A program made the position numbers and the translations under genes. The notes beneath the pieces are model-generated. The model saw only the letters and a list, made by a program, of their open reading frames with translations. It was not told the origin of the DNA and did not search any database. DNA of 52,639 nucleotides from an uncultured Cocleimonas sp. (lineage in GTDB: Bacteria; Pseudomonadota; Gammaproteobacteria; Thiotrichales; Thiotrichaceae), in contig NZ_CANLZW010000033.1 in NCBI RefSeq assembly GCF_947495625.1, positions 1-52,639 on the forward strand, read 5' to 3'. Of this stretch, positions 78-49,487 are shown one piece after another. The stretch's first letter is position 1; each line of letters starts with the position of its first letter.

Positions 78-108
78 CCCCCCCCCCTTACTTTAAAGCA
101 CTTTTTTA
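78..108 (+). repeat. C6-TACTTT repeat, copy 1 (10-C variant)
   Basis: First copy of the dispersed repeat. The C-run is expanded to ten C (78-87), followed by TTACTTTAAAGCAC and a six-T tract. It reads C-to-T on plus, while the gene to its right runs on minus and has its stop codon (106-108) inside the T-tract. It would stop transcription entering from the left edge, where no gene is visible. Confidence 0.75.
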
Positions 109-933
109 ATGAGACATCAAAACGGGAACGATCATAGACTTAAGTAATATCGCTGAGACACTGCCAAATACTTTCTGTTTTAAAGTGGGTGTTCCGTAAC
201 CGCCAATAATCAATAAATCGATATCATATTCTGAAATTTTATTAAGAATTGTTGTGGGTACATTATTCGAGCCGGGATTGACGCGCAGCAGTTTTGCGTT
301 AATCTCATGATGCGATAAATGCCTAATTAAACGATCTTCCAGTAAATTTTTCTTTTGCTCTTTTTGCTTTTTACTTTCAACAATAAGAATAAAGACTTCC
401 TGGGTTCTTGCTAATAAAGGTATTGAATCATGGACTGCACGGCTTGCCGCTGGGGTACCATCCCAGGCAATCATCGCTTTTTTAAATCCTGTTCTTCTAG
501 TGCCAATGTATGGCATGAACAAAATTGGCCGACCGCTGCGAAGAATGACTTCTTGAGAGAAGCCCTCTAGCCTTGAGAAATTGTCTCTAGATGGGTCAGG
601 TTGCCCGAGTATTACAAGGTCTGCATTACGAGCGTATTGCGCCATCTTGAGGGCACTTTTAGATGCGCCTCCGTTAATCACTAGTGATTCGACATTAATG
701 CCTTCAGTCTCAGCATTTTCGGCGAATTCACCAGCTATTTTGTGGGCTTGTTTATCCGATATGCGCATGAGGACTTCCTCATTATCGGACTTTGCGTGAA
801 TTGGCTTCATAGAAGCCAATGAGGCCCCTGTTAAATGGGCCCCATGTGCTTTGGAAATATCAAATGCAGCATTAACTCGATCTTCGTGTCCGGCACTATC
901 ATCGAGAAAAACAAGTATGTCTTTAATGCTCAA
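106..933 (-). CDS. tandem universal stress protein (UspA family)
   Basis: A 275-residue protein made of two Usp domains (about 1-140 and 150-275), a cytoplasmic family linked to stress and energy status. The C-terminal half keeps the ATP-binding signature G-2x-G-9x-G-S (GGYG, nine residues, GS), while the N-terminal half is degenerate at that site. This suggests one nucleotide-binding and one structural domain. It lies 15 bases downstream of the LivF-like ATPase gene and is probably the last cistron of that transporter operon. A Usp domain encoded with a transporter often adjusts or reports uptake, but that role here is inference. The family assignment is firm. Confidence 0.9.
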   Translation of the reverse strand: MSIKDILVFLDDSAGHEDRVNAAFDISKAHGAHLTGASLASMKPIHAKSDNEEVLMRISDKQAHKIAGEFAENAETEGINVESLVINGGASKSALKMAQYARNADLVILGQPDPSRDNFSRLEGFSQEVILRSGRPILFMPYIGTRRTGFKKAMIAWDGTPAASRAVHDSIPLLARTQEVFILIVESKKQKEQKKNLLEDRLIRHLSHHEINAKLLRVNPGSNNVPTTILNKISEYDIDLLIIGGYGTPTLKQKVFGSVSAILLKSMIVPVLMSH

Positions 934-948
934 ATGTAATTTTACTAA

Positions 949-1725
949 CTATATCGCGAGGTATTCATGACGAAGTTCTTCGTTATCTAGTACTTCTTTA
1001 GCAGTACCGTCAAACACGATATTACCCATATCAAGAATTAACGCGCGATCTGCTAAGCGTAAAGCGGCAACCGCATTTTGTTCAACGATAATGGTTGTAA
1101 TACCTTGTTTTTTAATACTATCAACGATGCTAGCAATTTCCTGAACGATAACAGGTGCTAAGCCTTCATAAGGCTCATCGAGCAGTAATAATTTGATATC
1201 GCGAGCTAGTGCTCTTGCAACCGCAAGCATTTGCTGCTCACCACCCGATAGAGTAGTACCCATTTGATTGCGACGTTCTGCAAGACGTGGAAAATGCTCG
1301 TAAAGTCGCTCTATGCTCCAGCCTACAGGTGGAGCAATTTGTGCTAGCTCTAAATTCTCATGAACGGTTAAACCGGCAATAATTCGGCGATCTTCTGGTA
1401 CTAGTGCAACACCACTTTGAGCCGCTTCGTAAGAAGACATTTTATGCAAAGGTTTATGGTCTAGCCAAATTTCACCGTGAGTTACTTGAGGATCGTCAAC
1501 ACGTGCAATAGAACGTAGCGTTGATGTCTTGCCCGCACCGTTTCTACCAAGAAGTGCAACAACTTCGCCTTCACGAATGTCAAAATTTACACCTTGAACA
1601 ATATAACTCTCACCGTAGTATGAGTGCATATCCCAGCAAGAGAAGAAAGCAGGATCAGAACCTTTGCTATTGACTGGGGCAACTCTATCTTTGACCTCAA
1701 TATTTTCTATTATACGATCACTCAT
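949..1725 (-). CDS. LivF-like ABC transporter ATPase (branched-chain amino acid/amide family)
   Basis: 258-residue ABC ATPase. Walker A GRNGAGKT is at residues 60-67, the LSGGEQQ signature at 159-165 and Walker B (LLLLDEP) at 179-185, followed by a conserved H-loop region. Compared with typical LivF (about 235 residues) it has about 28 extra N-terminal residues before the usual start of the fold. Its start overlaps the end of the LivG-like gene by 8 bases, indicating translational coupling. With the partner ATPase it would power import through the LivH/LivM-like permeases. The substrate is not deducible: this family includes leucine, urea and short-chain amide importers. Confidence 0.92.
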   Translation of the reverse strand: MSDRIIENIEVKDRVAPVNSKGSDPAFFSCWDMHSYYGESYIVQGVNFDIREGEVVALLGRNGAGKTSTLRSIARVDDPQVTHGEIWLDHKPLHKMSSYEAAQSGVALVPEDRRIIAGLTVHENLELAQIAPPVGWSIERLYEHFPRLAERRNQMGTTLSGGEQQMLAVARALARDIKLLLLDEPYEGLAPVIVQEIASIVDSIKKQGITTIIVEQNAVAALRLADRALILDMGNIVFDGTAKEVLDNEELRHEYLAI

Positions 1726-2479
1726 CTTCAGTTTCTCCCAGATATGCTTCTTTTACTTTTGGATCATTTTTAATATCTTCAGGTGTTCCAGTGGCAATGA
1801 TGTGTCCACGGGCTAGTACACTGATTCTATCTGCTAGGCTAAATACAACGTGCATATCATGCTCGATAATAACTTTAGTCATCGCACCCATCTTGCCGCT
1901 TTTGAGTAGATCAATTGTTGCGTTAGTATCGTGTCTCGCCATACCTGCAGTTGGTTCATCTAACAACAGTAAAGTAGGGTGTTGAATCAATCCCATTGCA
2001 AGCTCAAGACGACGCTTGTCACCACGAGACATACTGCCAGCGTGATGGTCATGAAATCTATCTAAATTAAAGTCGGCTAGTGTTGCCATCGCCTCTTCAT
2101 GTATGGCAGTTTCTTTAAGGAGACTTTTAAATGGATTGAATTTGAATGTTCCATCACGTTTTGCAAGTGCTGGAATCATCACGTTCTCAAGAAGAGTGAG
2201 TTCAGGAAAGATTTCTGGTGTTTGGAATACACGAACCATTCCTGCATGATTAATATCATGCGCTTCCATTCCAATCATATTCTTTCCATTGAACGTCACA
2301 CTTCCGTTATCTGGAATTAATCGTCCAATACAACAGTTAAGAAGTGTTGATTTACCCGCACCATTGGGGCCGATAATCGCGTGTGTCTCACCTTCCTCAA
2401 TTTGTAGATTCACATCTTGTAGAGCGTGCAAGCCACCAAAGGTTTTATTTACGCCTTTAATCTCAAGGATATTACTCAT
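1718..2479 (-). CDS. LivG-like ABC transporter ATPase
   Basis: 253-residue ABC ATPase. Walker [10 protein letters not shown] is at residues 37-45 and Walker B LLLLDEP at 170-176. The signature loop reads MSRGDKRR (150-157) rather than the more usual LSYGQQRR, so it is slightly atypical but still has the S-x-G core. The C-terminal section resembles the BCA_ABC_TP_C region typical of LivG. It overlaps the LivM-like gene by 4 bases (ATGA) and the LivF-like gene by 8 bases, within a tightly packed five-gene transporter operon. It pairs with the LivF-like protein as the two nucleotide-binding subunits. Confidence 0.92.
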
Positions 2480-3627
2480 TTTGCCTCTCCTTCGATTTCA
2501 GCAGTTCTATTGTCTTCGCCCTTTCCAAAAATACCTAAAATAAAGTCTTTAATTTTGGTTACACCTTCCATAACACCACCTGGTAAGAATATAACTATCA
2601 GCATGAATAATGCACCTAGTGTCAAATGCCAGCCTTCTCCAACAAAAACATTCGAAATATTCACTACAATGGTTTGTAACCACTCTGGCATAAAGCTGAA
2701 TATTTCTGTTAATTCGGATTTATTTAACGCAGAGAATATATTTTCAAGATACTTAATGATTCCAGCGCCTAGTAATGGTCCGATTAAAGTACCAACACCA
2801 CCCATGATTGTCATCAACACTACTTCACCAGAAGCTGTCCATTGCATTCTTTCAGCACCCGCCAGTGGATCGATTGACGCCAAAAGTCCTCCAGCTAAAC
2901 CTGCGTACATACCAGATATAATGAAAGCTGTTAATAGGTAAGGTTTGGTGTTGAAGCCTGTGTATTTCATTCGGGTTTGATTAGACTTTATCGCTAACAA
3001 CTTCATCCCAAAAGGTGATCGAAAAATCTTTAATGAAATATAAAATGCGAAAATCAAAAAAGCTGCAGCAACATAGAAACCAGAATACCCACTCATCAAA
3101 GTGCCGAATAAATTGGTAGATGGGAGGCCATCCGTTACAACAACGCCAAACATTGAATCTATCACGCGTGGGTCTTGTTGTTCCAGCTGCAAACCAGTTT
3201 CACCGTTAGTTATAGGTGTCAGTACAGAATAAGCAAGACTATATGCCATTTGCGCAAAAGCTAAGGTTAATATTGAGAAGTAAATGCCAGAACGTCTCAG
3301 ACTCAAGTAGCCAATAATCAAAGCGAATATGCCTGACACAATGACTGCGAGAATTATTGCAGGCACGACATTCATCGTTAGTAATTTAAAAGACCAAACG
3401 GCTGTATATGAACCTATTCCTAAAAAGGCTGCATGACCAAAGGATAAATAACCCGTTAGACCAAATAGAATATTATAACCAACTGCAAATATTCCAAATA
3501 TTGCAAACTTCTGAAGTAGGTCAGGATAGTTGGCACCAATTGGCGCAGTCCACATTGGCGCAGTTAAAACAACAGCTGCAAATATCAGCATGATGACGGT
3601 ATTACTTTTAATTAAATTTTTCATCAT
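2476..3627 (-). CDS. LivM-like ABC permease
   Basis: 383-residue inner-membrane protein with many hydrophobic segments. It carries the LivM signature region around [20 protein letters not shown] (residues about 54-73) and a G/L-rich [14 protein letters not shown] stretch near residue 280. The start overlaps the stop of the LivH-like gene in TAATG; two consecutive ATG codons are available. It is somewhat longer than typical LivM, with an extended C-terminal tail rich in charged residues. It forms the transmembrane pore with the LivH-like partner. Confidence 0.9.
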
Positions 3628-4876: not shown

Positions 4877-4890
4877 AATTTTACGACTAC

Positions 4891-7681: not shown

Positions 7682-7710
7682 AAAAAAGTGCCTATAAGTA
7701 AGGGGGTGTC
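7682..7710 (-). repeat. C6-TACTTT repeat, copy 2
   Basis: Reads on minus as GACACCCCCTTACTTATAGG followed by CAC and six T. It lies 20 bases past the stop of the minus-strand MocR-type gene, in terminator orientation. The stem is short (CCT/AGG), so structure alone is weak and the identification rests on sequence match to the family. Confidence 0.75.
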
Positions 7711-7729
7711 TTAGTATATTCATGAGTAG

Positions 7730-9199
7730 TTAAACACGAGTAATTGATGAATAACACTCAGCTAATCGCTCTATTCCAAGCTCTATCTGGTCACAACTCG
7801 AGTTGCCATAACCAATTAATAAACCGAGGTTTTTAGGCGGTTTCTGGTAAAGCTTATTCGCAGAATAGATGCCAACGGATTTATTTTTTGCAAGTTGAAT
7901 AAAGTCTTTTTCTTTGACCGCATCAAGCTGTTTGAACCAAACTAATAAATGAATACCTGCATTGGTTCCTTCAACAGATATTTCATCACCAAAATATTCT
8001 TCAAGCTTTGATATCAAAATTTCACGTCGTCTGGAATAGATCTTACGCATGCGTTTTAAGTGTCGTGCATATAGCGGAGAGTTAATAAATTCTGTAAGAA
8101 TTTGCTGGTTGAGCAATGGGCTGTGTCGATCGCTGCACCACTTTAAGGCGGTAAAAGGCTCAACCAAAGGCGTCGGTAAAATGACATAGCCAATGCGTAA
8201 AACGGGCGAAAGTACTTTCGAGAAGGTGCCTATATAAATAGTCTGACCCGATTGATCCAATCCCTGAATGGCCTCGATTGGAGGACCTTGATAGCGAAAT
8301 TCACTGTCATAATCATCTTCCACGATAAAAGCATTATTTTCATTCGCCCATTCGAGTAATTTAATACGCCTCGATAATGGCAGAACAGCGCCAGTAGGAA
8401 ATTGATGAGAGGGCGTTGTGTAAACCAGGCGTACCTTGTTATTTCCTGTCGAATTTGATTTATTGTCTGGATCGATTTTATCAAGATCAATGCCTTCAAT
8501 ATCCACATCGCATCTGATCAATTCTGCGCCGGCATTCGAAAACGCCTGTGCCGCGCCACGATATCCCGGTTCTTCGATAATGACTTTTTCACCTTTTTGA
8601 ATCAACAAGCGTGCGATTAAATCCAAAGCCTGCTGTGACCCATTAGTGATGACAATATTATCGGCATTACATTGGCATCCCCTGTTTTGTTGCGCATAGC
8701 GTGCAATGCTTTCACGCAATTTTAAAAGCCCTTCGGGTCTTTGGTAATTTGAGTCCAAGGTTTGGCTAAAGCGACGAGAAATCTGATTGATGTCTTTTAA
8801 TAAGTACTCATTGATATCAACGGGGCCATATTGAAAATTGACATCAAGCGCAGCCCTATCAAGATGATTCAGGTCATAAGCTTGCCATTGTTTCAATGAA
8901 TATTGTGCTGAGTCGCTGAGTTTGGGCGGTCGATAGTGTTGTTTTGGTAACTGTTGTTGCTTGCTCAAATCATTATCCGCGACAAAACTGCCAGAGCCAA
9001 ACCGTGTCTCAATATAGCCTTCTGCTAACAGTTGTTCATAACAATTAATCACCGTATTACGAGAAACATTTAATGATTTGGCTAATTCACGACTAGACGG
9101 TAGCTTTTCACCCGCTTTGTATTCCCCAGCTAGAATTGTATTTTTTAGGCTTTCATAGAGTTGTCTATACAGAGAGCCTTGGCCGCTTAATTTAATCAT
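7730..9199 (-). CDS. MocR/PdxR-type GntR regulator with aminotransferase domain
   Basis: 489 residues. The N-terminal GntR winged helix (about 10-75) has the usual SSRELAKSLNVSRNTV recognition region. A linker leads into a fold-type I aminotransferase domain (about 115-480) with NGSQQALDL and the PLP-lysine context GTFSK. These proteins sense PLP or amino-compound ligands and usually control an adjacent, often divergent, gene. Here the divergent neighbour is a GNAT acetyltransferase 143 bases away, a plausible target. PdxR itself is divergent from pdxST, which is absent, so I give no symbol. Confidence 0.88.
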   Translation of the reverse strand: MIKLSGQGSLYRQLYESLKNTILAGEYKAGEKLPSSRELAKSLNVSRNTVINCYEQLLAEGYIETRFGSGSFVADNDLSKQQQLPKQHYRPPKLSDSAQYSLKQWQAYDLNHLDRAALDVNFQYGPVDINEYLLKDINQISRRFSQTLDSNYQRPEGLLKLRESIARYAQQNRGCQCNADNIVITNGSQQALDLIARLLIQKGEKVIIEEPGYRGAAQAFSNAGAELIRCDVDIEGIDLDKIDPDNKSNSTGNNKVRLVYTTPSHQFPTGAVLPLSRRIKLLEWANENNAFIVEDDYDSEFRYQGPPIEAIQGLDQSGQTIYIGTFSKVLSPVLRIGYVILPTPLVEPFTALKWCSDRHSPLLNQQILTEFINSPLYARHLKRMRKIYSRRREILISKLEEYFGDEISVEGTNAGIHLLVWFKQLDAVKEKDFIQLAKNKSVGIYSANKLYQKPPKNLGLLIGYGNSSCDQIELGIERLAECYSSITRV

Positions 9200-10050: not shown

Positions 10051-10100
10051 TTTAATTCAGGGGATTAATTCATTAGAAAAGACTAGCTGGTTAGAAGGAA

Positions 10101-10130
10101 AAGCCACCCCCCTACTTATAGGCACTTTTT
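10101..10130 (+). repeat. C6-TACTTT repeat, copy 3
   Basis: Reads AAGCCACCCCCCTACTTATA then GGCAC and a T5 tract, 51 bases past the stop of the GNAT gene and in terminator orientation. A GCC/GGC stem is possible. A second short AGCACTTTTTT stretch follows at about 10134-10144. Confidence 0.8.
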
Positions 10131-10215
10131 GTAAGCACTTTTTTATTGATTGGCTAGACATCGATGCTCATTTGAACTGCACAAAATCTCCATATAAAAT
10201 TTGCTAAAGTTACGC

Positions 10216-13200: not shown

Positions 13201-16198
13201 GTATAAAATCAAATGGAAGTGGTGGTGGGATAAATCCAGCGAATCTCTCGCAGAGTATGCAGATAGCCGTTATCAACGACTTTTACAAAAGGATATCGTC
13301 AGCACAACAGATGGCGTGGGCGAATGGAACTTTGAAGTTAAATACCCTAGTTGGGGCCGTTATCTAATCCGAGCGTGTGATTTAGAAGGCACACACTGTA
13401 CGGGTAAAACAGTTTATATCGATTGGCCGGGTTGGGCAGGACGCGCACAAGAGGAAGGTAGTGGTGCTGCTAGCCGGTTAAATCTGTTCTCTGATAAAAC
13501 CGCTTACAGCGTAGGCGATGTTGCAACAATTCAATTACCTGCAACCTCTCAAGGCAGAGCATTACTGAGCATTGAAACCGGTAGCCGAATTCTGGAGCAG
13601 CGCTGGGTCAAATTTACAGAAGCATCAACGGCAGCTGCTGCAGGCGTCAATAGCTCCGAGAAGCGATTGCAGTTTGAAGTGCCTATTACCGCAGAAATGG
13701 CACCCAACGCTTATGTGCACATCACTCTATTACAACCTCATGAAGGTAAATCTAACGATAGGCCGATTCGCCTGTATGGCATTATTCCATTAGATGTAAA
13801 AGATGCTGAAAGTTATCTACTACCTAAAATTCAGGCTGAAAAAGAATGGAAACCAGAATCTAAGCAGACCTTAACGGTTAGCGAAGGCAATGGTAGAAGC
13901 ATGAATTATACCTTGGCAGTTGTTGATGAAGGCTTGTTGGGTTTAACCTCATTTAAGACGCCAAATTTACATCGTCATTTCTACAGCAAAGAAGCACTCG
14001 GCATTCAAACCTGGGATTTGTTTGATCATGTTGTCGGTGCATATGGTGGCAAGTTAGAACGCATGCTTGCACTCGGTGGTGGCGATGATGAAGAAACGGA
14101 TGATGACGATAGCAAGAAGCGTCGCTTCCCACCTGTGGTTAAATACCTCGGTCCCTTTACTTTAGCTCAAGGCGAAACCAGAAAACACGAAATAGAATTG
14201 CCTCCTTACTTAGGCGCAGTTCGTGTGATGTTGGTTGCGGGCGAAAAAGGAGCTTACGGTAAATCCCAGCAATCTATTTTTGTGCGTCAACCGTTAATGT
14301 TGCAAAGCAGTTTGCCTCGTGTGCTTGGACCTCAGGAAGAAGTGTCTATTCCTGTGACTTTATTCTCGATGGACGACAGAATTAAAGATGTGACCGTATC
14401 GGTCGAAACAGATGATTTAGTCAACGTTATTGGAGAACCCACTCAACACATTAGCTTTAACAAGATGGGTGAGAAAATTGCCTTTATCAAAGTTAAAACG
14501 GCCAATAAAGTCGGCAAGACGCGTTTACGCTTTACGGCGACTGCTTCTGCCAACAGCACTTCAACGTCTTCTGATAAGGATGGACGTAATGGTGAATTTA
14601 AATCTGAAAAAGTAGTTTATCTGGATATTCGCAGAGCCAATCAGGAAACCACACGCACCATTACTCAGGTCATCGAGCCGGGTAAAAGCTGGGATAACAA
14701 AGCAGTGGCCTTTGGTCTGGAAGGCACTAACCAATCGATACTAGAGTTATCAGCAGTGCCACCATTGAATATTGAGAAAAGACTAAATTTCTTAATTCGG
14801 TATCCACATGGTTGTTTAGAACAAACCTCGTCATCGGCTTTCCCACAATTATTCTTGTCGAAGGTGATGGATTTAACCGATAAGCAAAAGCAGGATACTC
14901 AGCTACACGTTCAAAAAGCGATTGATAAGTTAAGACGCTTCCAAACCGGAACCGGTGATTTTAGTTATTGGCCGGGCGGTAATTATCAAAACGATTGGGC
15001 AAGTATTTATGCCGGTCACTTTTTATTAGAGGCAAAGAAACTGGGTTATAAATTGCCAGCGAACCTACTCAATAACTGGCTGAATTATCAGGTCGGAGCA
15101 GCGCAAGGCTACATCGTTGCGAGCAATCAATATTCTCATACTCAAGCTTATCGTCTTTATGTACTTGCGTTAGCAGGTCAACCGCAATTAGGCGCGATGA
15201 ATCGTCTTCGTGAAGCGGCTAATACGGCGAGTACCGAAACTGGTGGAAACAACAGTCGATTGAACACCAAAGGTCGCTGGTTACTCGCAGCTGCATACCA
15301 AACGGCATCACAACCTGAGGCGGCAACAGCATTGATTCAGGGTATGGATTCCGATGCTACTGCAGTGAATAATGTTACTACGCCTGATAAAACATTCAGC
15401 TCGACGCTGGGAGATCTTGGATTGCAGTTAGATAATCTGGTTGCCTTGAACAAAAAGCAGGATGCGAATCAGTTATTAGAAAAAATTGCAGAGCAAATGA
15501 GTGGCGATGGATTCCAGAGTACTCAAGGTATATCCTGGGCATTAATGGGTGTTTCCCGTTATTTGGGCGGAGATACCAGTAGTTTCACTGCAAATCTGTC
15601 GCAAGATGGCACGCCAAAAACCATCAATAGCAGCAAGCCTATATCCAGCACCATGCTGGTAAAAGCAGATTCTAACATCAGTGTAGAAAATACATCTGGA
15701 GTGAGATTATTTGCGAATCTGGTGACTAAGGGTGTACCTGTAGCGGGTGATGAAATCAGTCAATCAAAAGGCTTAACCATTGATACTGAGTTTAGCGTGC
15801 GCGATGCTGAAAACAAAAAGCTGTGGAATGATCTTGCTGATGATAGCGACTGGAAAGTTGCTCAGGGCACTGATGCGAAGTTATCTGTGAGCATTCAAAA
15901 TAACGGTAATTATGACGCTGAAAATATAGCACTTACGATTCCAGTAGCAGCAGGTATGGAAATACTGTCAGCATCAGAACAAGCCGCGACCAAGAGTAAA
16001 TATGATTATCGAGATTTGCGTGATGATCGCATTTATTACTATTTCTCATTAAAGAAAGGTGAAGTCAAAAACTTTGAATTATTGGCGAATGCTTCCTATC
16101 AAGGGCGTTATTACCAACCTGCGATAACTGTTGAAGCAATGTACGATGGTAATTTAAAGGCCATTGAGAAAGGTCGCTTTATTAATATTATCAAGTAG
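10280..16198 (+). CDS. large bacterial alpha-2-macroglobulin lipoprotein (YfhM-like)
   Basis: About 1972 residues. A lipobox (LNAC, Cys27 with this start) indicates lipid anchoring; the residue after Cys is Gly, favouring the outer membrane. The thioester motif GCLEQ is at about 1511-1515, so it should covalently trap attacking proteases in the periplasm. MG1/MG2 domains, a central bait-region segment and C-terminal complement-like domains are consistent with the length. I prefer GTG at 10280, which has GAGGGAT eight bases upstream, over the ATG at 10265, which lacks a ribosome-binding site. It is followed by pbpC, the classical partnership in which A2M protects the periplasm when PBP1C repairs peptidoglycan. 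Confidence 0.93.
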   Translation: MLFKGFAGDLKRSLPLTIIFALMLNACGGDKGNTNSTDNSNKTEAMKTASKSAPASNTADNNSQAASPSSSVDQATAIIQDTTEAEPPLETKDDLSAFSWEQLGGWHTQGIVSRDTPIHIDFNRDVVDESMVGKDASKIMFISPEVKGKPVFASKSSIVWKPLEHLKPSTVYKVSIKPVGLFDIPNKAAPFQYTFQVIPLEYEIKTVGLTTDPAVSNGMMLEGQLLVSDRVPSKLVEKVVSAKFQDKTLPIEWTHNTNGKSHKFVVRDIVKETFDADLHLSWDGSAIDIKTKGRKSITVPGSDKFEVTKIAVIHKADSSPFVEVRFSDDLDPNQNLKGLVELAKNKYKVSIDGNRINIYPNRNLAGSFLVRLYGGIKSKEGNKVLSKKIEQKVAFDDAKPKVKFVSKGSILPENSTLEIPFEAVGVNAVEVTAFRIYSDNMKQFLQVGNLSGSNELGRSGRHLWRKVIPLKSADPNKWNRYTFNATELMKKYSGGMIRLTLSIKRRHSTYRCAADTPVADSKDAPLKDMEDYGVLENSGWDGISDYVEGYNNDNSGWDSRNDPCTDSYYRYNSDKTTASQNFIASNIGLITKREANGDLSIISTDIRTAKPLTGTEFEIRNYQGQLLSKATSDGEGFAKVQLSETPFLLVAKKFEDTAYLKLNTKTALAISHFDVGGKKIKKGIKGFIYGERGVWRPGDDIFLTFVLQNQALNEQDAKKIPDSHPVTMKLIDPRGRVVDTKTSVDSVGGFYAFKFKTEEKAQTGNWMVKAFVGGSSFSKSLMIETVRPNRLKLELNFNAQGENASDKPAEVIYSSEGTPEGTLFSQWLHGATASNLKADVSVKFTQKKTQFGKFTDYVFDDPARSLRSQDTMLLEGRLDDEGYLKFSKDFKVKGKPAGMLKAKFTSRVFEEGGAFSISRSNIDYHPYTNYVGIKLPKGDATRGMLLTDVKHKVSIASLSAKGEEVSLNKVQVSLYKIKWKWWWDKSSESLAEYADSRYQRLLQKDIVSTTDGVGEWNFEVKYPSWGRYLIRACDLEGTHCTGKTVYIDWPGWAGRAQEEGSGAASRLNLFSDKTAYSVGDVATIQLPATSQGRALLSIETGSRILEQRWVKFTEASTAAAAGVNSSEKRLQFEVPITAEMAPNAYVHITLLQPHEGKSNDRPIRLYGIIPLDVKDAESYLLPKIQAEKEWKPESKQTLTVSEGNGRSMNYTLAVVDEGLLGLTSFKTPNLHRHFYSKEALGIQTWDLFDHVVGAYGGKLERMLALGGGDDEETDDDDSKKRRFPPVVKYLGPFTLAQGETRKHEIELPPYLGAVRVMLVAGEKGAYGKSQQSIFVRQPLMLQSSLPRVLGPQEEVSIPVTLFSMDDRIKDVTVSVETDDLVNVIGEPTQHISFNKMGEKIAFIKVKTANKVGKTRLRFTATASANSTSTSSDKDGRNGEFKSEKVVYLDIRRANQETTRTITQVIEPGKSWDNKAVAFGLEGTNQSILELSAVPPLNIEKRLNFLIRYPHGCLEQTSSSAFPQLFLSKVMDLTDKQKQDTQLHVQKAIDKLRRFQTGTGDFSYWPGGNYQNDWASIYAGHFLLEAKKLGYKLPANLLNNWLNYQVGAAQGYIVASNQYSHTQAYRLYVLALAGQPQLGAMNRLREAANTASTETGGNNSRLNTKGRWLLAAAYQTASQPEAATALIQGMDSDATAVNNVTTPDKTFSSTLGDLGLQLDNLVALNKKQDANQLLEKIAEQMSGDGFQSTQGISWALMGVSRYLGGDTSSFTANLSQDGTPKTINSSKPISSTMLVKADSNISVENTSGVRLFANLVTKGVPVAGDEISQSKGLTIDTEFSVRDAENKKLWNDLADDSDWKVAQGTDAKLSVSIQNNGNYDAENIALTIPVAAGMEILSASEQAATKSKYDYRDLRDDRIYYYFSLKKGEVKNFELLANASYQGRYYQPAITVEAMYDGNLKAIEKGRFINIIK

Positions 16199-16210: not shown

Positions 16211-16243
16211 AAAAAAACGCCTCAAAGGTGGGGGGTGGCTTTT
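16211..16243 (-). repeat. C6 repeat, copy 4 (ACCTTT variant), left half of inverted pair
   Basis: On minus it reads AAGCCACCCCCCACCTTTGA, then GGCG and seven T. It begins 12 bases past the A2M stop but in the orientation opposite to that gene. With copy 5 it forms an inverted pair of near-identical ends around about 150 bases. On plus, GCC/GGC plus TTTT could still act weakly as a terminator. Confidence 0.78.
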
Positions 16244-16396
16244 CTAGGCTCACCAAGAGCGAGAAATGTCTAGCCAAATAAATGAGTTATTCGTTTTAAA
16301 ATACAAAACGATAAGCTCACTAAAGTCTATCGTAGATTCCATAAGGAATCGTCGATGTACAATGGTTATGCTGGGTTAACTGTTATTAAGTAACTC
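16244..16396. other. structured spacer between inverted repeat copies
   Basis: About 150 non-coding bases between copies 4 and 5. They contain a perfect hairpin GATTCC-ATAA-GGAATC (16335-16350), flanked by the arms ACGATA (16308-16313) and TATCGT (16328-16333). The unit of inverted ends plus structured interior resembles a miniature element or BIME. No open reading frame of note. Confidence 0.45.
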
Positions 16397-16428
16397 AAGC
16401 CACCCCCCACCTTTTAGCCACTTTTTTA
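16397..16428 (+). repeat. C6 repeat, copy 5 (ACCTTT variant), right half of inverted pair
   Basis: Reads AAGCCACCCCCCACCTTTTA, then GCCAC and six T, ending 10 bases before the pbpC start. Its orientation would terminate transcription coming from A2M, so A2M and pbpC may be less tightly co-transcribed than in enterobacteria. Confidence 0.8.
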
Positions 16429-18876: not shown

Positions 18877-19572
18877 TTAGTAAGGCCTCATACCCGTAAA
18901 GTTACCGGGTGGGTTATAACTACAAACCCATGTTTGTGATTTGTCGTTGCAGACTTTTACGGCACAGCCAACTTCGGTTGTGTTCTTCCAAACGACTTGC
19001 GTGTAGTGACCGCATTTTTGTCCAGGTTTACAACTATTGCTTTGGTAATCATACCAGCGCTCTTCATCTGTCCACGCTTTTACGACATCTTTAATGGTCA
19101 CCCGATTGGTTTCGCGAAATCCATCGCTCCACACTACTGCGCTTGACCAGTATAGATTCTCACCATAAGGAGGTTGCCCGCTTCTATGACGCATTGTACA
19201 GCTTGACCCTGAACCTAAATGATTAGCCCATTCTTTTGAATATCTTGCTAGTTTATTTGACCACTTTAGTGGCTTAAGACGATGTTTGGCTCTTACTCTA
19301 TTATGAGATTTTAGTACTCCTGAAAAAAGCTGAGATTTTGATAAAGGTGGTTTAGCGGGTGGTCGAACTTCAATGATTTGCTGCTCGATTGGATCTTCAG
19401 GAGGCAATTCAATATTTTTTGGGTCATGTGTAAATCCCTCTACTAATTCTTCTGTAGGTTCGATAATTTCAAGCGGGGGAGATTCTTTTTGTTCAACAGA
19501 ACAGGAGATTAGTAATAAGCTACTTATAAAGAAGAGCATGCTTCTTTGAATGGGTTTGATACGTGTACGCAT
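18877..19572 (-). CDS. CAP-domain lipoprotein (SCP/PR-1-like)
   Basis: 231 residues. A signal sequence ends in the lipobox LISC (Cys24, next residue Ser, so outer-membrane sorting is likely). A Pro/Glu-rich linker (about 28-78) precedes a CAP domain (about 85-228) with GENLYWSS, GHYTQVVW and the terminal CSYNPPGN motif. At least three conserved cysteine pairs are possible. The nearest described members are eukaryote-like PR-1 proteins, also common in gammaproteobacteria. The biochemical role is unknown. It is convergent with pbpC, with only 41 bases between the stops and no clear terminator. Confidence 0.85.
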   Translation of the reverse strand: MRTRIKPIQRSMLFFISSLLLISCSVEQKESPPLEIIEPTEELVEGFTHDPKNIELPPEDPIEQQIIEVRPPAKPPLSKSQLFSGVLKSHNRVRAKHRLKPLKWSNKLARYSKEWANHLGSGSSCTMRHRSGQPPYGENLYWSSAVVWSDGFRETNRVTIKDVVKAWTDEERWYDYQSNSCKPGQKCGHYTQVVWKNTTEVGCAVKVCNDKSQTWVCSYNPPGNFTGMRPY

Positions 19573-19607
19573 AAGTCAGTGTATAGATATTTTCTTTAAT
19601 GGCCCCG

Positions 19608-19635
19608 AAAAACCCGCTAAAAGTAGGGGGGTGAC
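19608..19635 (-). terminator. C6-TACTTT repeat, copy 6 (terminator of plsC)
   Basis: On minus: GTCACCCCCCTACTTTTAGC, then GGG and five T. A stem CCC-C-CTA / TAG-C-GGG with a CTTT loop forms around one C-C mismatch, followed by the U-tract. It lies 57 bases past the plsC stop in the correct orientation. Confidence 0.8.
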
Positions 19636-19692
19636 TCTAATTATTGTTATTTCTTAAAGAGTTCGGGGTGCGGCTTAAGTTCGTTATTAAAT

Positions 19693-22465: not shown

Positions 22466-22481
22466 TTGCAATCGTTTTATT

Positions 22482-22512
22482 AAGTCACCCCCCTACTTTG
22501 AGGCACTTTTTT
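22482..22512 (+). repeat. C6-TACTTT repeat, copy 7
   Basis: Reads AAGTCACCCCCCTACTTTGA, then GGCAC and six T, 16 bases past the VOC stop in terminator orientation. It is also the left partner of an inverted pair with copy at 22741-22767, enclosing a broken gene. Confidence 0.85.
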
Positions 22513-22526: not shown

Positions 22527-22754
22527 ATGACAGAACTGAGATCAGAGTTAAAAACTCAAATGATTCAGATATGCGATAAGAAAATATCGGAAAAAGGGCA
22601 ATCGGTGGGGGTGTCTTTCTACGCATTTTTTGCGAATAAAAACACTGACCCTGAGAGTTTGATGGAAGTTGCCACCTGATGGATTCAAACGCATCGATTA
22701 GATCATTTTGAGAAGGCTCATAAGATTAGGGATATGATAGAAAAGGGCCTGTAA
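22527..22754 (+). pseudogene. small gene interrupted by one in-frame TGA
   Basis: A 76-codon frame begins with ATG and ends at TAA (22752-22754). It is interrupted only by TGA at 22677-22679 (codon 51), immediately before a TGG Trp codon. The translation on both sides is gene-like (QSVGVSFYAFFANKN before; THRLDHFEKAHKIRDMIEKG after) and resembles, from memory, a small conserved family (possibly DUF6500) in which a WW pair sits at this place. A TGG-to-TGA change is the simplest explanation. No clear ribosome-binding site. It could be a genuine pseudogene or a sequencing error. Confidence 0.65.
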
Positions 22755-22767
22755 GTAAGGGGGTGAC
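22741..22767 (-). repeat. C6-TACTTT repeat, copy 8 (overlaps pseudogene stop)
   Basis: On minus: GTCACCCCCTTACTTACAGG, then CCC and TTTT. The orientation is opposite to both flanking plus-strand genes. It overlaps the stop codon of the broken gene and forms an inverted pair with copy 7. Confidence 0.75.
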
Positions 22768-22794
22768 TACCAATAATTAAGGATAAATGGATCT

Positions 22795-24851: not shown

Positions 24852-24947
24852 TTTAAAATACATGATCTGAATATCAGTCTAATAAGATCAAAATATAATA
24901 ATTACTGAGGTTGTTCTAAATCTCAGCTGAGTGAAGTCTTTTCATAT

Positions 24948-24975
24948 AAAAACCCCCTAAAAGTAGGGGGGTGTC
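24948..24975 (-). terminator. C6-TACTTT repeat, copy 9 (strong bidirectional terminator)
   Basis: On minus: GACACCCCCCTACTTTTAGG, then GGG and five T. It is the best-structured copy: a perfect 7-bp stem CCCCCTA/TAGGGGG with a CTTT loop and flanking T/A tracts, usable from both convergent genes. Confidence 0.88.
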
Positions 24976-24997
24976 ATTTTCAATTTAAACTCATTAT

Positions 24998-36831: not shown

Positions 36832-36862
36832 CGACCTTTTGTAACTAAAAGTTAAGTAAAGA

Positions 36863-36893
36863 AAGCCACCCCCCACCTTTAGGGCACTTTTTT
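36863..36893 (+). terminator. C6 repeat, copy 10 (ACCTTT variant; terminator of ruvB)
   Basis: Reads AAAGCCACCCCCCACCTTTA, then GGGCAC and six T, 31 bases past the ruvB stop. A GCC/GGC or CCC/GGG stem is followed by the U-tract. The downstream convergent gene's stop lies just past it. Confidence 0.8.
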
Positions 36894-39055: not shown

Positions 39056-39098
39056 AATGCTATTTACGTTTTAAAAGAACAAAAACGTAAATAGCATT
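39056..39098. repeat. 17-bp perfect inverted repeat between cysQ and dsbA-like gene
   Basis: Arms AATGCTATTTACGTTTT (39056-39072) and its exact complement (39082-39098), with a 9-base loop. The arms are AT-rich and long for a standard terminator. It is joined directly to the truncated repeat copy 11, replacing the T-rich half of that copy. It likely serves as a bidirectional transcription stop between convergent genes. Confidence 0.8.
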
Positions 39099-39099
39099 C

Positions 39100-39117
39100 A
39101 TAAGTAGGGGGGTGACC
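39100..39117 (-). repeat. C6-TACTTT repeat, copy 11 (truncated)
   Basis: On minus it keeps GGTCACCCCCCTACTTAT but lacks the G-triplet, CAC and T-tract, running instead into the 17-bp inverted repeat. It lies after the minus-strand DsbA-like gene. Confidence 0.7.
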
Positions 39118-39131
39118 CAAGGGTTTTTCTT

Positions 39132-40109: not shown

Positions 40110-40115
40110 GAGCAA

Positions 40116-40145
40116 AAGCCACCCCCCTACTTTGGGGCATATTTT
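40116..40145 (+). terminator. C6-TACTTT repeat, copy 12
   Basis: Reads AAGCCACCCCCCTACTTTGG, then GGCATATTTT, right after the lipoprotein stop. A CCCC/GGGG stem with a TACTTT loop forms a plausible terminator. Confidence 0.82.
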
Positions 40146-40238
40146 ACGGATACGAGTGTCTTAATTATCGTTAATCTTGCATAAATGTTCTCTCTAGTAA
40201 TATAACTCTTAATGGTAAATCCATTAGGGGATATAAAA

Positions 40239-41209: not shown

Positions 41210-41231
41210 ATTGAAGGCCTCGTAATTTCAT

Positions 41232-41261
41232 AAGCCACCCCCCTACTTTGGGGGTATTTTT
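41232..41261 (+). repeat. C6-TACTTT repeat, copy 13 (reversed relative to cpoB)
   Basis: Reads AAGCCACCCCCCTACTTTGG, then GGG and TATTTTT. Strong CCCCC/GGGGG stem. Both flanking genes run on minus, so its T-tract is on the wrong side for cpoB, which ends at 41286; it could block transcription from plus. Confidence 0.83.
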
Positions 41262-41285
41262 CAGGTCAAAATTGACTGAAAACTA

Positions 41286-45763: not shown

Positions 45764-45795
45764 GTCTTTTTATTGCTTATCTTGTAGATAATGTA

Positions 45796-46218
45796 TTAAT
45801 TATTAGATTCTGGATCTGTCATCCAGCTGATCTTTTTTGCGCCTGCTTTCTGCGCTGCAATCATGGCTCGTGTTACATAAGTATGTATTGCGTTACCATC
45901 TGCGCGTATGTATACAGGACGTGTTCCTGTCTCACCTAATTGACCTTTCATTTGTTCGGTTAGTTCAGTGGTACTAATCACCTCATCTGACTCCCCAAGG
46001 CTTATTTCCCCATTTTCCCTGATTGATATATACAGAGGCGGTTGCTTGCTGTCGCTCTCTAACATCGCTGCATCGGCGTCTGGCATATTCACATTAACGC
46101 CAGATTGCATCATTGGAGCCGTTACCATAAAGATGACCAATAGCACGAGCATGACGTCGATATAAGGTACGACGTTCATCTCTGCCATAGCGCGACGTTT
46201 TTTAAAACGACGAGACAT
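45796..46218 (-). CDS. tolR: Tol-Pal energising protein TolR
   Basis: 140 residues, ExbD/TolR family. One transmembrane helix (about 18-38) with the conserved Asp in YIDVMLVLLVIFMV and a periplasmic domain. It couples proton flow with TolQ to TolA. The ATG overlaps the tolQ stop by one base. No clear truncation. Confidence 0.95.
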   Translation of the reverse strand: MSRRFKKRRAMAEMNVVPYIDVMLVLLVIFMVTAPMMQSGVNVNMPDADAAMLESDSKQPPLYISIRENGEISLGESDEVISTTELTEQMKGQLGETGTRPVYIRADGNAIHTYVTRAMIAAQKAGAKKISWMTDPESNN

Positions 46219-46904
46219 TACTGAGCATCCTTCTTGATGTGCGCCTGGCGCTCTAACAAGGTGGTAAATTCTTCACGGAAGTTTTCATAACGAACGGCTA
46301 TACGATCGACTTTATCGCTGAATCGGTTGTAGGCAATTACCGCAGGAATCGCCGCGAATAAACCAATTGCAGTTGCAATCAAGGCTTCTGCAATTCCGGG
46401 AGCGACTACCGCTAGCGTTGCCTGTTTCATCTCACTTAAAGAAATGAATGAATTCATGATTCCCCATACCGTTCCGAACAGACCAATATACGGACTGGTA
46501 GAACCGACGGTTGCTAAGAAAGACAGGTTTTGTTCAAGCTTATCCATTTCGCGGGTTTCTGCAACTCGCATGGCACGGTGAGCTGTATCAGTTGGCGGTA
46601 AGTGCCTAGGTGTTGCACCTTTGTTTAAGCGCGCATATTCGTGATAGCCATTAAAAAAGATCGCGGCCATGCCATCTTTATCGCTACGATTAGCCAGATC
46701 GCTATAGAGTTTATTAAGAGAGATTCCACTCCAGAAGCGGTCTTCAAAAATTTCGAGTTTTTTCTGTGCTTTGCTCAATTGACTGCTTTTTATCAACATC
46801 AATGTCCATGATGCGAGTGAAGCTAAAACTAAAATGGCCATTACCACCTTAACGATAAGGCTGGCGTCCATAATGAGTTTTAAAATAGTTTGGTCAAATG
46901 ACAT
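46218..46904 (-). CDS. tolQ: Tol-Pal proton channel protein TolQ
   Basis: 228 residues, MotA/TolQ/ExbB family. Three transmembrane helices; the motif LATVGSTSPYIGLFGTVWGI and the last helix region EALIATAIGLFAAIPAVIAYN are diagnostic. The start overlaps the ybgC end by 11 bases. Confidence 0.96.
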   Translation of the reverse strand: MSFDQTILKLIMDASLIVKVVMAILVLASLASWTLMLIKSSQLSKAQKKLEIFEDRFWSGISLNKLYSDLANRSDKDGMAAIFFNGYHEYARLNKGATPRHLPPTDTAHRAMRVAETREMDKLEQNLSFLATVGSTSPYIGLFGTVWGIMNSFISLSEMKQATLAVVAPGIAEALIATAIGLFAAIPAVIAYNRFSDKVDRIAVRYENFREEFTTLLERQAHIKKDAQ

Positions 46905-47406
46905 TTTGTATTCTCTCTAAAATATTTTTTGGTACGCGTTTCGGTTTGAACTTAATGGTATCGACACTGACTACGGTGACGTTTCCAATTGCTAAGGTTT
47001 CGTAACGTTTTTCTGACGTTTTTTCTTCAGAACCATCTCTGTCATCGGCATCTTTTACTTCACGAAGTATCTTTTGTTCAAAGGTGATACTGGTGTTTCC
47101 CAGCTTTAAGATTTCAGCGGAGACAAAAAGTTCGTCATTAAATAGCGCAGGACGTAAATAATCACAATTGAGTGCTTTTACCACGAAGATTACATGCTGC
47201 TCTTCAGAGAGCACATCCAATTCATAACCTAGGTGTCTAAGCCACTCAGTACGGGCTCTTTCGAAGAAACTGATGTAATTCGAATGATACACAACACCAC
47301 CTGCATCGGTGTCTTCGTAGTAGACACGAACCGGGAAAGTAAATGTGTCCGAATGAATGGGTTTAGCGATAGCTTGCTTGTTTTTTGATCTATTTATATC
47401 TGTCAT
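46894..47406 (-). CDS. ybgC: acyl-CoA thioesterase YbgC
   Basis: 170 residues, a 4HBT hot-dog-fold thioesterase. The catalytic region YYEDTDAGGVVYHSNYISFF has the conserved Asp. Members hydrolyse short-chain or hydroxyacyl-CoA esters and may link phospholipid metabolism to the Tol complex. First gene of the tol cluster. The C-terminus is longer than in E. coli, with a charged insertion (VKDADDRDGSEEK). Confidence 0.93.
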   Translation of the reverse strand: MTDINRSKNKQAIAKPIHSDTFTFPVRVYYEDTDAGGVVYHSNYISFFERARTEWLRHLGYELDVLSEEQHVIFVVKALNCDYLRPALFNDELFVSAEILKLGNTSITFEQKILREVKDADDRDGSEEKTSEKRYETLAIGNVTVVSVDTIKFKPKRVPKNILERIQNVI

Positions 47407-47424
47407 GGCGCAATCCTATCACAT

Positions 47425-47437
47425 ACTTCTTAGAAGT
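47425..47437. promoter_or_regulatory. palindrome upstream of ybgC-tol operon
   Basis: ACTTCT-T-AGAAGT, a 13-base perfect palindrome 19 bases upstream of the ybgC ATG. Possible regulator site or simply part of the 5' leader; no firm promoter hexamers around it. Confidence 0.3.
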
Positions 47438-47446
47438 GATTAAATG

Positions 47447-47477
47447 AAAAAAGGCCTCCAAAGTAGGGGGGTGGCTT
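47447..47477 (-). terminator. C6-TACTTT repeat, copy 14
   Basis: On minus: AAGCCACCCCCCTACTTTGG, then AGGCC and six T, 12 bases past the stop of the minus-strand acyltransferase gene. Stem with one mismatch plus U-tract; correct orientation. Confidence 0.83.
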
Positions 47478-47488
47478 TCATTTATTAT

Positions 47489-48871
47489 CTACTTTTCAGT
47501 TTTAGATAAACGTTTCGCTATACGAACCATTTGAGCCAATTCAACTTCTAATTCATCTCTTTTCGTTTCTAAGTAAGCCTTGAGGTCTTGCTTGCGCATA
47601 AACAGAAAAAAGACTTTCAGATTTACCAATGTACGGCGGTATTCTCCTTGTAATGATATCGCGACCACCGCGCTGATAAAGAGACTGGTGAGATAGATAA
47701 TCGCCCAGTGCAAACTGAAGTTGTCGTATATGAGGTAGCTCTGGATTCCCCAGAATAAACTAAAGGCAGACATCCCAATCAGAACACGCGCTGTGTCGTA
47801 CTGATCTACGTCTTTTGATAATTTTCGGGTTAAATATTCTGTAAGCTTAAACGGGATAATGCTGTTTAGAATTCCCCATAGCGCAATTGGGAAACCGATC
47901 AAAACGATACCCAGAGTCCTTAAGGTGTACAGGATCAAAAATAGCGGTTTGTAATTAACCGCAAGGTGGTAATGGTCGATACCGCAGGCATCACAGAGGC
48001 GTTCGAACATGCGCATTTTGCTCATCAGGCTGCGTACTTTGTCTGGCTCGTGCTGTTGTAATAAATCCTGTGCTTCTATGAGTCGTTGAAGTGCGGTAAA
48101 ACGTTGGGTGAGACTGGTTTTTCGTCGTTTGCCACCGCGCAACGCAAAAAAGCGTTCTAGTCGATGAACCAATGCCATGTCTTTCCAGGATTTAGTATTT
48201 AAGGTAACCGACTCAATCCCTTGTTTAACGCGTAAAGTAATCAAGCGAACGGCATCTTGCTCGCTCATTTCTTCATCTACAGATAGATCAATGGCTTTAC
48301 CGTAACGCACTAAAACTTCGGTTCTAGCACGCTTCTTTCGTGTAAAAGTCATGCCTACAGGAATAACGACAGGGGCAACGCCATTGGCTTTGATTGCTCC
48401 AAGCGCCATACGCGCTGCACCTGTTTTGATCTCCTGAACATAAGGATTGGCGTGGCTTTGCCCTTCAGGGAAAATAACAATCGTCTCTTTTTCAGCCAAC
48501 AGCTTATAAACTTGCGAAAAGCTGTCTTCGTTTTTAGAGGTATCGCTGGTTTCGGTATTGCGTCGATAAATCGGCACCGCCCCAATAGTTTGCAAAATAG
48601 GCCTGAGAATGGGGTTTTCGAATAAGCCGCTGCGGGCTAAGGGTCGAATGTTTCTTTTGGTTGATGCTTGCAATACAACACCGTCAATCAATGCGTTCAC
48701 ATGATTAGCGCACAAGATGACGCCCGCATCATTCGGAATAGTCTCTTCACCGCTGACTTCAAAACGACTGTAGAAGGTGTTGATGACAAAACGCCCGAAT
48801 CGTTTCCATGCGGATAAAAAACCACGTCTAACTCTTGATTGTTTTTGTGGTTTTTTATCAGGTGCTTGCAT
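47489..48871 (-). CDS. PlsC-domain acyltransferase with C-terminal membrane segments
   Basis: 460 residues. An N-terminal acyltransferase domain (about 25-230) has motif I NHVNALIDGVV (HX4D-like; the Asp is at the fifth position) and motif III FPEGQSH. The C-terminal half has two to four hydrophobic helices (about 300-400). It is larger than PlsC and resembles membrane glycerophosphate acyltransferase-like proteins. Probably phospholipid or lipid remodelling; the exact acceptor is unknown. Separate from the plsC at 19693. Confidence 0.85.
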   Translation of the reverse strand: MQAPDKKPQKQSRVRRGFLSAWKRFGRFVINTFYSRFEVSGEETIPNDAGVILCANHVNALIDGVVLQASTKRNIRPLARSGLFENPILRPILQTIGAVPIYRRNTETSDTSKNEDSFSQVYKLLAEKETIVIFPEGQSHANPYVQEIKTGAARMALGAIKANGVAPVVIPVGMTFTRKKRARTEVLVRYGKAIDLSVDEEMSEQDAVRLITLRVKQGIESVTLNTKSWKDMALVHRLERFFALRGGKRRKTSLTQRFTALQRLIEAQDLLQQHEPDKVRSLMSKMRMFERLCDACGIDHYHLAVNYKPLFLILYTLRTLGIVLIGFPIALWGILNSIIPFKLTEYLTRKLSKDVDQYDTARVLIGMSAFSLFWGIQSYLIYDNFSLHWAIIYLTSLFISAVVAISLQGEYRRTLVNLKVFFLFMRKQDLKAYLETKRDELEVELAQMVRIAKRLSKTEK

Positions 48872-48946
48872 GAAAGGATAATAGCAAACCTTTGTCTGAC
48901 TACCTACAGTCTAAAAAGTAGCTATAGATAGAGAGATGGAATTAGA

Positions 48947-48952
48947 TATAAT
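48947..48952 (+). promoter_or_regulatory. candidate -10 of queF
   Basis: TATAAT, 27 bases before the queF ATG, with no good -35. No preQ1 riboswitch-like element is visible in the leader. Confidence 0.4.
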
Positions 48953-48979
48953 CTCGCTAAATTGAATTAGAGATATAGC

Positions 48980-49447
48980 ATGAGCGATAAAAACATCTAC
49001 GAAAACCTGCAACAATTAGGTGGGGATACAAAACTGCCTGATTCTCCAGAGACTGCGATTTTAGAAAGTGTAGAAAATCCACAGTCAGACGTTGATTATG
49101 TGGTGCGTTTTACCGCACCAGAATTTACATCATTATGCCCAATGACGGCTCAACCCGATTTCGCCCATTTAATGATTGATTATATTCCAGATCAGAAATT
49201 GGTAGAGAGTAAATCACTAAAGCTATTTCTTGGTGCATTTAGAAATCACGGCGCATTTCATGAAGATTGTACGGTAAGTATCGCGCGCCGCATTATTGAT
49301 GAAATTGCCCCGAAGTGGTTACGCATCGGCGGTTACTGGTATCCACGTGGCGGCATACCGATTGACGTATTTTTTGCGCAAGGCGAAATCCCGAAAGGTG
49401 TCTGGGTGCCAGAGCAGGGCGTTCCGCCTTATAGAGGTAGAGGGTAA
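48980..49447 (+). CDS. queF: 7-cyano-7-deazaguanine reductase (short form)
   Basis: 155 residues, unimodular QueF. The catalytic Cys lies in [13 protein letters not shown] and the family motif in ESKSLKLFL; the conserved [10 protein letters not shown] follows. It reduces preQ0 to preQ1 with NADPH in queuosine synthesis. This is the compact type rather than the fused type of E. coli. Stands alone, convergent with rapA, followed by a strong repeat terminator. Confidence 0.95.
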
Positions 49448-49455
49448 AATAGAAT

Positions 49456-49487
49456 AAGTCACCCCCCTACTTTGAGGGGGTTTTTTA
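49456..49487 (+). terminator. C6-TACTTT repeat, copy 15 (terminator of queF)
   Basis: Reads AAGTCACCCCCCTACTTTGA, then GGGGG and six T. The 5-bp CCCCC/GGGGG stem and U-tract make a textbook Rho-independent terminator 8 bases past the queF stop. Confidence 0.88.

Follow-up and report, generated by a model that had tools for sequence, protein, structure and literature searches.

A 32-bp extragenic repeat family of Cocleimonas whose copies probably double as FtsK signposts

A 52,639-nucleotide contig of an uncultured marine Cocleimonas sp. (Thiotrichaceae; NZ_CANLZW010000033.1 of assembly GCF_947495625.1), the whole of which is called the window here, contains 15 copies of a 32-bp repeat that is found roughly 1,000–1,300 times per genome in the window's species and in Cocleimonas flava. 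The most probable explanation is an extragenic repeat family, organized like the repetitive extragenic palindromic (REP) elements, whose copies double as signposts for FtsK. The copies sit at the 3′ ends of genes, are conserved between the two species, switch orientation at dif, become more polar from origin to terminus, and depend for this polarity on a single base. Their orientation follows replication, not transcription. The G-rich strand of the repeat lies on the leading strand, and it contains the octamer AAGTAGGG, present in 386 of 527 copies (73%).

Replication polarity and the embedded octamer

The window's genome (4.60 Mb in 89 contigs) was compared with an assembly taken as C. flava. 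Polarity was counted over 527 copies outside the window and outside C. flava contigs 5 and 6, and is given as copies facing dif to copies facing away, genic copies being dropped unless stated. In C. flava, dnaA lies at 969 kb of contig C1 and a dif-like site at 116.9 kb of C2, close to the sign change of the GC skew. Intergenic copies on C2 number 5 plus to 17 minus below dif and 78:9 above it. A dif-like site was also found at 22.0 kb of contig C4 in the window's genome, with counts of 1:5 below and 15:5 above. In both genomes, then, copies point toward dif on both arms and reverse there, as do the FtsK-orienting polar sequences (KOPS).

The bias is graded along the chromosome. On the terminus contigs the ratios are 95:14 (C. 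flava C2) and 57:9 (C2 and C4 of the window's genome), in the middle 54:15 and 23:10 (C. flava C3 and C4, placed by skew), and on the origin contigs 78:56 and 36:25. C2 and C1 of C. flava differ with a Fisher p of 9e-8 when all copies are counted; among genic copies polarity is significant in none of the zones. Of these two contigs, C2 carries 22.2 copies per 100 kb on the leading and 3.7 on the lagging strand, and C1 15.9 and 12.6. The orthologue of the window lies at about 822–875 kb of C. flava C1 (extrapolated from an aligned locus at 827,693–848,748), some 95–150 kb from the origin in a zone of mixed orientation, which is why the polarity is invisible within the window, where 8 copies are on the plus and 7 on the minus strand.

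In the terminus half, the letters at positions 13 and 14 are not the same in wrong-way as in right-way copies, and position 7 differs too (p = 0.004). Copies with AAAGTAGGG (AAAG) are polar at 102:1 in the terminus, 47:1 on C3 and C4 and 63:29 near the origin, whereas those with TAAGTAGGG (TAAG) give 33:13, 19:15 and 27:24. Terminus and middle together yield 149:2 against 52:28 (Fisher p = 8e-13). The contrast is kept by unpaired copies (98:1 vs. 33:9; 46:1 vs. 19:13) and within each genome (58:0 vs. 27:9; 44:1 vs. 6:4); near the origin it is not significant among unpaired copies (47:18 vs. 24:17, p = 0.20).

Similar octamers were counted outside the repeat, with repeats masked at −5 bits for the main counts. 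The class RRGNAGGG is polar at 114:22 in the terminus, 81:15 in the middle and 98:49 near the origin (195:37 for terminus and middle). Within it the E. coli KOPS octamer GGGNAGGG gives 16:1, 10:1 and 12:6 (26:2), after an earlier count in other regions, masked at 10 bits, of 21:0; GAGNAGGG gives 49:5, 30:1 and 24:8 (79:6), and RRGTAGGG 34:3, 19:2 and 24:8 (53:5). Outside the repeat, AAGTAGGG itself stands at 21:3 in terminus and middle. Near-miss controls in the same two zones are less polar: RRCNAGGG 95:65, RRGNAGGC 181:119, RRGNGGGG 61:33, RRGNAGAG 224:105 and RRANAGGG 227:103, or 59–69%, with RRGNAGGA the sole flat control (72:75 and 54:57; 126:132 in all). A 5′ T before RRGNAGGG lowers the polarity outside the repeat as well (26:11 vs. 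169:26, p = 0.02), an effect present in the terminus sample (18:10) and absent in the middle (8:1). RRGNAGGG thus behaves outside the repeat as a KOPS-like class of the genus, and since the class includes AAGTAGGG, the repeat would carry one of its members. The repeats supply 386 AAGTAGGG sites compared to 379 RRGNAGGG sites elsewhere, or roughly every second RRGNAGGG site of the analysed sequence.

The FtsK gamma domain was found in 12 of 12 Cocleimonas genomes and is nearly invariant. It reads NRAASMIEDME, compared to NRAARMIEAME in the solved chains 2j5o and 2ve8/2ve9, which we take to be those of Pseudomonas aeruginosa. The Ser that replaces the Arg of 2j5o and 2ve8 in all 12 genomes presumably stands at R1300 of E. 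coli. Residues R1300, E1303 and E1306 are named for KOPS recognition (PMC2680272). The Ser could suit an octamer whose first half is less strict, but repeat-rich and repeat-poor genomes share it. We infer that FtsK reads the octamer of the repeat. As a member of the RRGNAGGG class, AAGTAGGG would steer FtsK toward dif. In the terminus half, a backward copy would misdirect FtsK, and such copies would therefore be lost or persist mostly in forms whose octamer is weakened or altered. The polarity would then be kept up by selection and not by biased insertion.

The repeat unit, its placement and its dialects

The repeat was first noticed in a sequence-only reading of the window, which listed 15 copies; this observation is confirmed. 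A 32-column profile finds exactly 15 matches at 5 bits or more, scoring 23.8–50.9 bits, in the places given by that reading with unit starts 0–12 bases off (Table 1), and likewise none in the stretch said to lack copies, between 24,979 and 36,861. The profile was built on 345 intergenic copies, in which conservation of the core is partly built in, the core having served as the query. Their consensus is AAAGNCACCCCCCTACTTWNRGGSNNTTTTTT, 32 bp with fixed spacing, which bears out the claim of a shared sequence beyond a hairpin and T-tract. Outside the unit there is just a weak preference for A/T immediately upstream. Loose matches to the core CACCCCCCTACTTT number 19 in the window, compared to a mean of 2.42 in dinucleotide shuffles; the four that are not repeat copies (1971, 17608, 20409 and 25565) each score below 5 bits and are taken as chance. 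Rfam, at gathering thresholds, gave no matches in the window.

Table 1. Copies of the 32-bp repeat in the window
Copy	Position	Strand	Profile (bits)	Remarks
1	76..107	+	23.8	
2	7682..7713	-	41.3	1 difference vs. C. flava orthologue
3	10100..10131	+	47.9	C. flava orthologue with nested insert of ~55 bases
4	16211..16242	-	33.0	ACC variant
5	16396..16427	+	25.7	ACC variant
6	19607..19638	-	41.9	1 difference vs. C. flava
7	22481..22512	+	50.9	C. flava core identical
8	22739..22770	-	33.5	1 difference vs. C. flava
9	24947..24978	-	45.5	Full hairpin CCCCCT...AGGGGG (few copies have one)
10	36862..36893	+	31.6	3′ of ruvB; identical in C. flava
11	39088..39119	-	25.6	Nested GAATG...ACGTAAATAG element in place of tail
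12	40115..40146	+	44.8	1 difference vs. C. flava
13	41231..41262	+	41.9	Both adjoining genes antisense to copy
14	47447..47478	-	47.8	1 difference vs. C. flava
15	49455..49486	+	49.5	Convergent gap, rapA on other side

Beyond the window the motif is far above chance frequency. With no more than one mismatch allowed, the 13-base core occurs 1,071 times in the window's genome, compared to once for the reversed pattern. The profile at 10 bits finds 545 copies in 2.04 Mb of this genome and C. flava (276 and 264 per Mb), with 1 reversed-control match. Genes were called with a homemade caller (coding fraction 85–91%). Occupancy of gaps, sense and antisense counts and the consensus derive from core-pattern matches (118 in the window's genome and 271 in C. 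flava), and later counts from the profile. Copies lie behind genes, at a median of 39 nt past the stop codon in sense and 41 nt in antisense. Among gaps of at least 60 bp, a copy is found in 27/39 convergent, 49/150 codirectional and 13/53 divergent gaps of the window's genome, and in 61/107, 117/404 and 32/140 of those in C. flava. The assertion that no copy lies inside a gene holds in the window, where no core falls in a called gene; genome-wide, 57 of 545 copies are genic (16/158 and 41/387). CCCACTT replaces CCTACTT in 33 of 55 genic copies from the two genomes, removing a TAG on the opposite strand, which is likely a coding constraint.

Forty of 142 intergenic copies in the window's genome have a spanning C. 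flava alignment. The core, compared by eye in printed alignments, has at most two changes in 39 and is deleted in 1, even where the identity of the alignment is just 73–85%. Rates were taken from the 23 alignments that reach 85% identity. In these the core differs at 7/299 sites (2.3%) and the T-tract at 2/115, compared to 69/874 and 60/897 in the flanks (6.7–7.9%). Positions −1, 14, 19 and 20 differ at 23/92 sites, about three times the flank rate, which may reflect conversion among copies.

A second small hairpin element, GAATGATATTACG...AACGTAAATAGAATTTATGCAGAGCTA, is nested in the repeat between CTACTT and GGCACTTTTTT. It is seen in the window at 39088–39119 and the bases just below, and near 14,955 of another locus (L205); its tail has 12 matches at up to four mismatches in the 2.04 Mb. 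The window copy at 10100 resembles an empty site whose C. flava orthologue is filled, which suggests that the repeat may serve this element as a homing target.

The RuvB proteins of the window and of C. flava DSM 24830 share 98% identity, and the DNA is 93.5% identical over 21 kb. Among 12 Cocleimonas genomes, core matches number 254–1,071 in six (the window's genome, C. flava, and genomes G004, G007, G008 and G011) and 0–14 in the others. They fall to background, like the reversed control, in the family's other genera (0–8 in 48 genomes) and in the class (0–4 in 35 genomes). Three dialects were seen. Dialect A is that of the window's genome and C. flava. Dialect B, AAAAAGTACACCCCCCNACTTTTT..., has at up to three mismatches 561 matches in G007, 674 in G011, 604 in G004 and 225 in G008, compared to 98 and 36 in the dialect-A genomes and at most 12 elsewhere; for G004, G008 and G011 the dialect is known from pattern counts and listings alone. 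Dialect C, CCACCCCCCCTNTTTTTCGNNGNTTTGT, has 374 matches in G010, which has just 14 window-core matches, and at most 10 elsewhere.

The dialect B and C profiles, run on 140 kb of G007 and 364 kb of G010, found 35 and 80 copies and nothing with the reversed controls. Placement resembles that of dialect A: 2 genic, 8 convergent, 16 codirectional, 5 divergent and 4 contig-edge copies in G007, and 3, 25, 35, 6 and 11 in G010. The evidence that positions are conserved from one dialect to another is no more than suggestive. Of 24 conserved gaps in G010, 2 had a copy in both genomes, 2 in G010 only, 1 in the reference only and 19 in neither (p = 0.06); for 7 gaps of G007 these numbers were 1, 2, 0 and 4 (p = 0.43). 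Orientation was the same in all three gaps with a copy in both dialects.

Competing explanations

Several observations weigh against the FtsK reading. Total copy density is flat toward the terminus (25.9 vs. 28.5 per 100 kb), so that most copies exist for a reason other than attracting FtsK. The family persists in G007 and G010 largely without AAGTAGGG, which is found in 5/35 and 2/80 copies, compared to 13/35 with AAGTGGGG in G007 and 61/80 with AAANAGGG in G010; polarity was examined in dialect A alone. FtsK gamma is alike in repeat-rich and repeat-poor genomes and does not co-vary with dialect. AAGTAGGG matches GGGNAGGG at 6 of 8 positions rather than exactly. Copies with TAAGTAGGG hold the same octamer, yet are less polar, and outside the repeat the two forms, at 8:1 for AAAGTAGGG and 4:1 for TAAGTAGGG, are too few to compare. 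There is a general G-skew, with many G-rich words 60–70% polar. C. flava C3 and C4 and C2 of the window's genome were assigned to replichores by GC skew alone, and the 5:17 side below dif on C. flava C2 is less clean than the other. In the absence of enrichment near dif, and with the G007 and G010 dialects mostly lacking the octamer, signposting is probably a later role or constraint, and the repeat may predate it. As to the rest of the 32 bp, we would guess at a bound protein that insulates the 3′ ends of genes, or terminates transcription there, whatever the orientation of the copy.

In a rival account of this kind, a dedicated factor would bind the 32 bp and stop RNA polymerase from both sides, and the polarity would be a side constraint from the embedded KOPS. 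This is possible, if on balance doubtful. Spacing and sequence are fixed and the possible outer arms do not covary; the occupancy of convergent gaps is high, and both orientations are used equally. Convergent ends with a repeat also have fewer canonical terminators than gap-matched repeat-less ends with the same span masked (200 draws): 16/97 in sense, compared to a mean of 25.9 (lowest draw 15), and 17/96 in antisense, compared to 28.7 (lowest draw 19). At codirectional sense ends the count is 7/85 vs. a mean of 14.0 (lowest draw 6). This weakly favours a role in insulation or termination whichever way the copy points, and canonical terminators appear partly replaced. However, the deficit is modest and is absent at codirectional antisense ends (18/102 vs. 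15.8). Genome-wide dialects are expected if a binding factor drifts, but conversion among copies could also yield them. The suggestion in the sequence-only reading of a shared origin or a bound factor is plausible as to the factor.

The FtsK reading borrows its organization from REP elements, and the copies could be such elements or REPINs spread by REP-associated tyrosine transposases (RAYTs), an explanation we consider unlikely. Most copies lie outside genes. Those within 120 bp of each other are inverted without exception: the 488 intergenic copies of the window's genome and C. flava form 35 inverted pairs (T-tracts facing in 27 and facing away in 8) and no direct one, and the 80 copies of G010 form 24 and none. 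The doublets occur in codirectional and convergent gaps. Members of a pair are more alike at variable positions than chance, agreeing at 125/216 vs. a shuffled mean of 96.5 (0/2,000 shuffles as high), and in G010 at 90/126 vs. 74.6 (2/2,000). RAYT matches (NF047646) were found in the window's genome (two), G009 and G010 (one strong, one weak), with short weak ones in G001 and G006. Each of the two in the window's genome has a repeat 56–67 bp away on one side. But a repeat that near a gene is common here, and two such cases prove little; singlets predominate in the window's genome and C. flava. Moreover, no RAYT was found in five of the six core-rich genomes (C. flava, G004, G007, G008 and G011, of which G004, G008 and G011 are just 80–89% complete), nor in G002 and G005, and RAYT was rejected as the present-day driver because most repeat-rich genomes gave none.

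The two intact RAYTs lie at C26:12462–12995 and C5:114847–115353 (loci L150 and L154), each with a repeat within 70 bp on one side. Repeats also lie about 180–200 bp from weak RAYT matches, at 19,151–19,192 of L283 in G010 (match at C65:18571–18972) and at 8,137–8,178 of L270 in G001 (match at C57:8374–8478).

A combined history, in which a two-sided roadblock family drifts with its binding protein and was co-opted in one lineage as the main FtsK guidance, is to our mind distinctly unlikely. If it were true, one element would link transcription boundaries with chromosome segregation.

An intrinsic terminator family, in which a short hairpin and T-tract end transcription of the upstream gene, is quite improbable. 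The conserved sequence and 3′-end placement hold up, as does the highly conserved T-tract, and copies sit behind stop codons at ends where canonical terminators are fewer; the terminator framing does not. Sense copies are not preferred in same-direction gaps (sense to antisense 20:33 in the window's genome and 65:64 in C. flava), orientation being indifferent to transcription. Short CCT/AGG arms are common, but a hairpin of −7 kcal/mol or stronger precedes the T-tract in just 57/529 copies on the sense strand, and in 59/529 on the antisense strand. The outer arms show no covariation, and the inner stem is beyond such testing, its C-run being nearly invariant. Codirectional antisense ends show no terminator deficit, and the C7 of the dialect C consensus lacks a G-run with which it could pair. 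A hairpin-based terminator was rejected for the absent sense preference and the few stable hairpins.

Replication-coupled insertion bias, for example through single-stranded DNA on the lagging strand, would give polarity without selection and accords with the G-rich strand lying on the leading strand. It is very improbable: an effect along the whole arm would be expected, but polarity is weak near the origin, and the change from 149:2 to 52:28 with one base is not easily explained by it. A polar, Ter-like fork barrier is barely credible, since, polar as the copies are relative to fork movement, they number about 1,000 and forks would have to pass the wrong-way copies common near the origin (56/134 intergenic copies on C. 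flava C1). DNA uptake sequences are dispersed and also frequent within genes; this identity was rejected because 57/545 copies lie in called genes and the rest outside them. A phage origin was rejected as well, none of 10 core matches in viral contigs having the T-tract unit after the core (printed contexts, by eye).

Significance and known systems

Extragenic repeats have usually been regarded as selfish elements or as terminators, and KOPS have been seen as dispersed octamers. Here the same DNA makes up a repeat family and an apparent system of FtsK signposts. The natural one-base difference between AAAGTAGGG and TAAGTAGGG, over hundreds of copies, shows what the chromosome tolerates near dif. 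Two questions become testable through the repeat: on what the specificity of KOPS rests within a living chromosome, and by what means the repeat is kept in order in genomes that yielded no transposase for it. If the KOPS reading is true, FtsK gamma should bind in the order GAGT, AAAGT, TAAGT, GTGGG among AAAGTAGGGGGG, TAAGTAGGGGGG, AAGTGGGG and GAGTAGGG. The dialects of congeners are a case of concerted change at hundreds of sites. Among the matches listed for the open-access literature on KOPS and FtsK, architecture imparting sequences (AIMS), extragenic repeats, Beggiatoa, Cocleimonas and Leucothrix, the parts of the articles available give no account of this family.

Two of the known systems share with the repeat a highly conserved or abundant intergenic sequence. 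The TAACTGA repeats of Beggiatoaceae are abundant in giant marine sulfur-oxidising bacteria, but they are unrelated in sequence and are direct repeats, with 169 sets in one draft genome (PMC4679880). The intrastrand triplex motif of E. coli and others is a G/C-rich repeat that is always intergenic and highly conserved; it differs in having 23 copies in MG1655 and no strand bias (PMC4666352).

REP and REPIN elements with their RAYTs are likewise short, extragenic, present in hundreds of copies and arranged as inverted doublets (PMC3116915). The repeat is extragenic, of high copy number and forms inverted doublets, these being a minority in the window's genome and C. flava. It differs in that singlets prevail in these two, a cognate RAYT was not found in most repeat-rich genomes, the self-complementary arms are just short, and the copies are polar with respect to replication.

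Both a leading-strand bias and its increase toward the terminus, by which AIMS are defined (PMC5993296), are found here, but the total abundance is flat and the unit is 32 bp rather than an octamer. With KOPS (GGGNAGGG) the repeat shares polarity on the leading strand toward dif, the change of side at dif and an effect that is stronger toward the terminus, and its embedded AAGTAGGG fits the RRGNAGGG class of the genus. KOPS are free 8-mers, whereas here the octamer is held inside a 32-bp extragenic repeat with conserved flanks.

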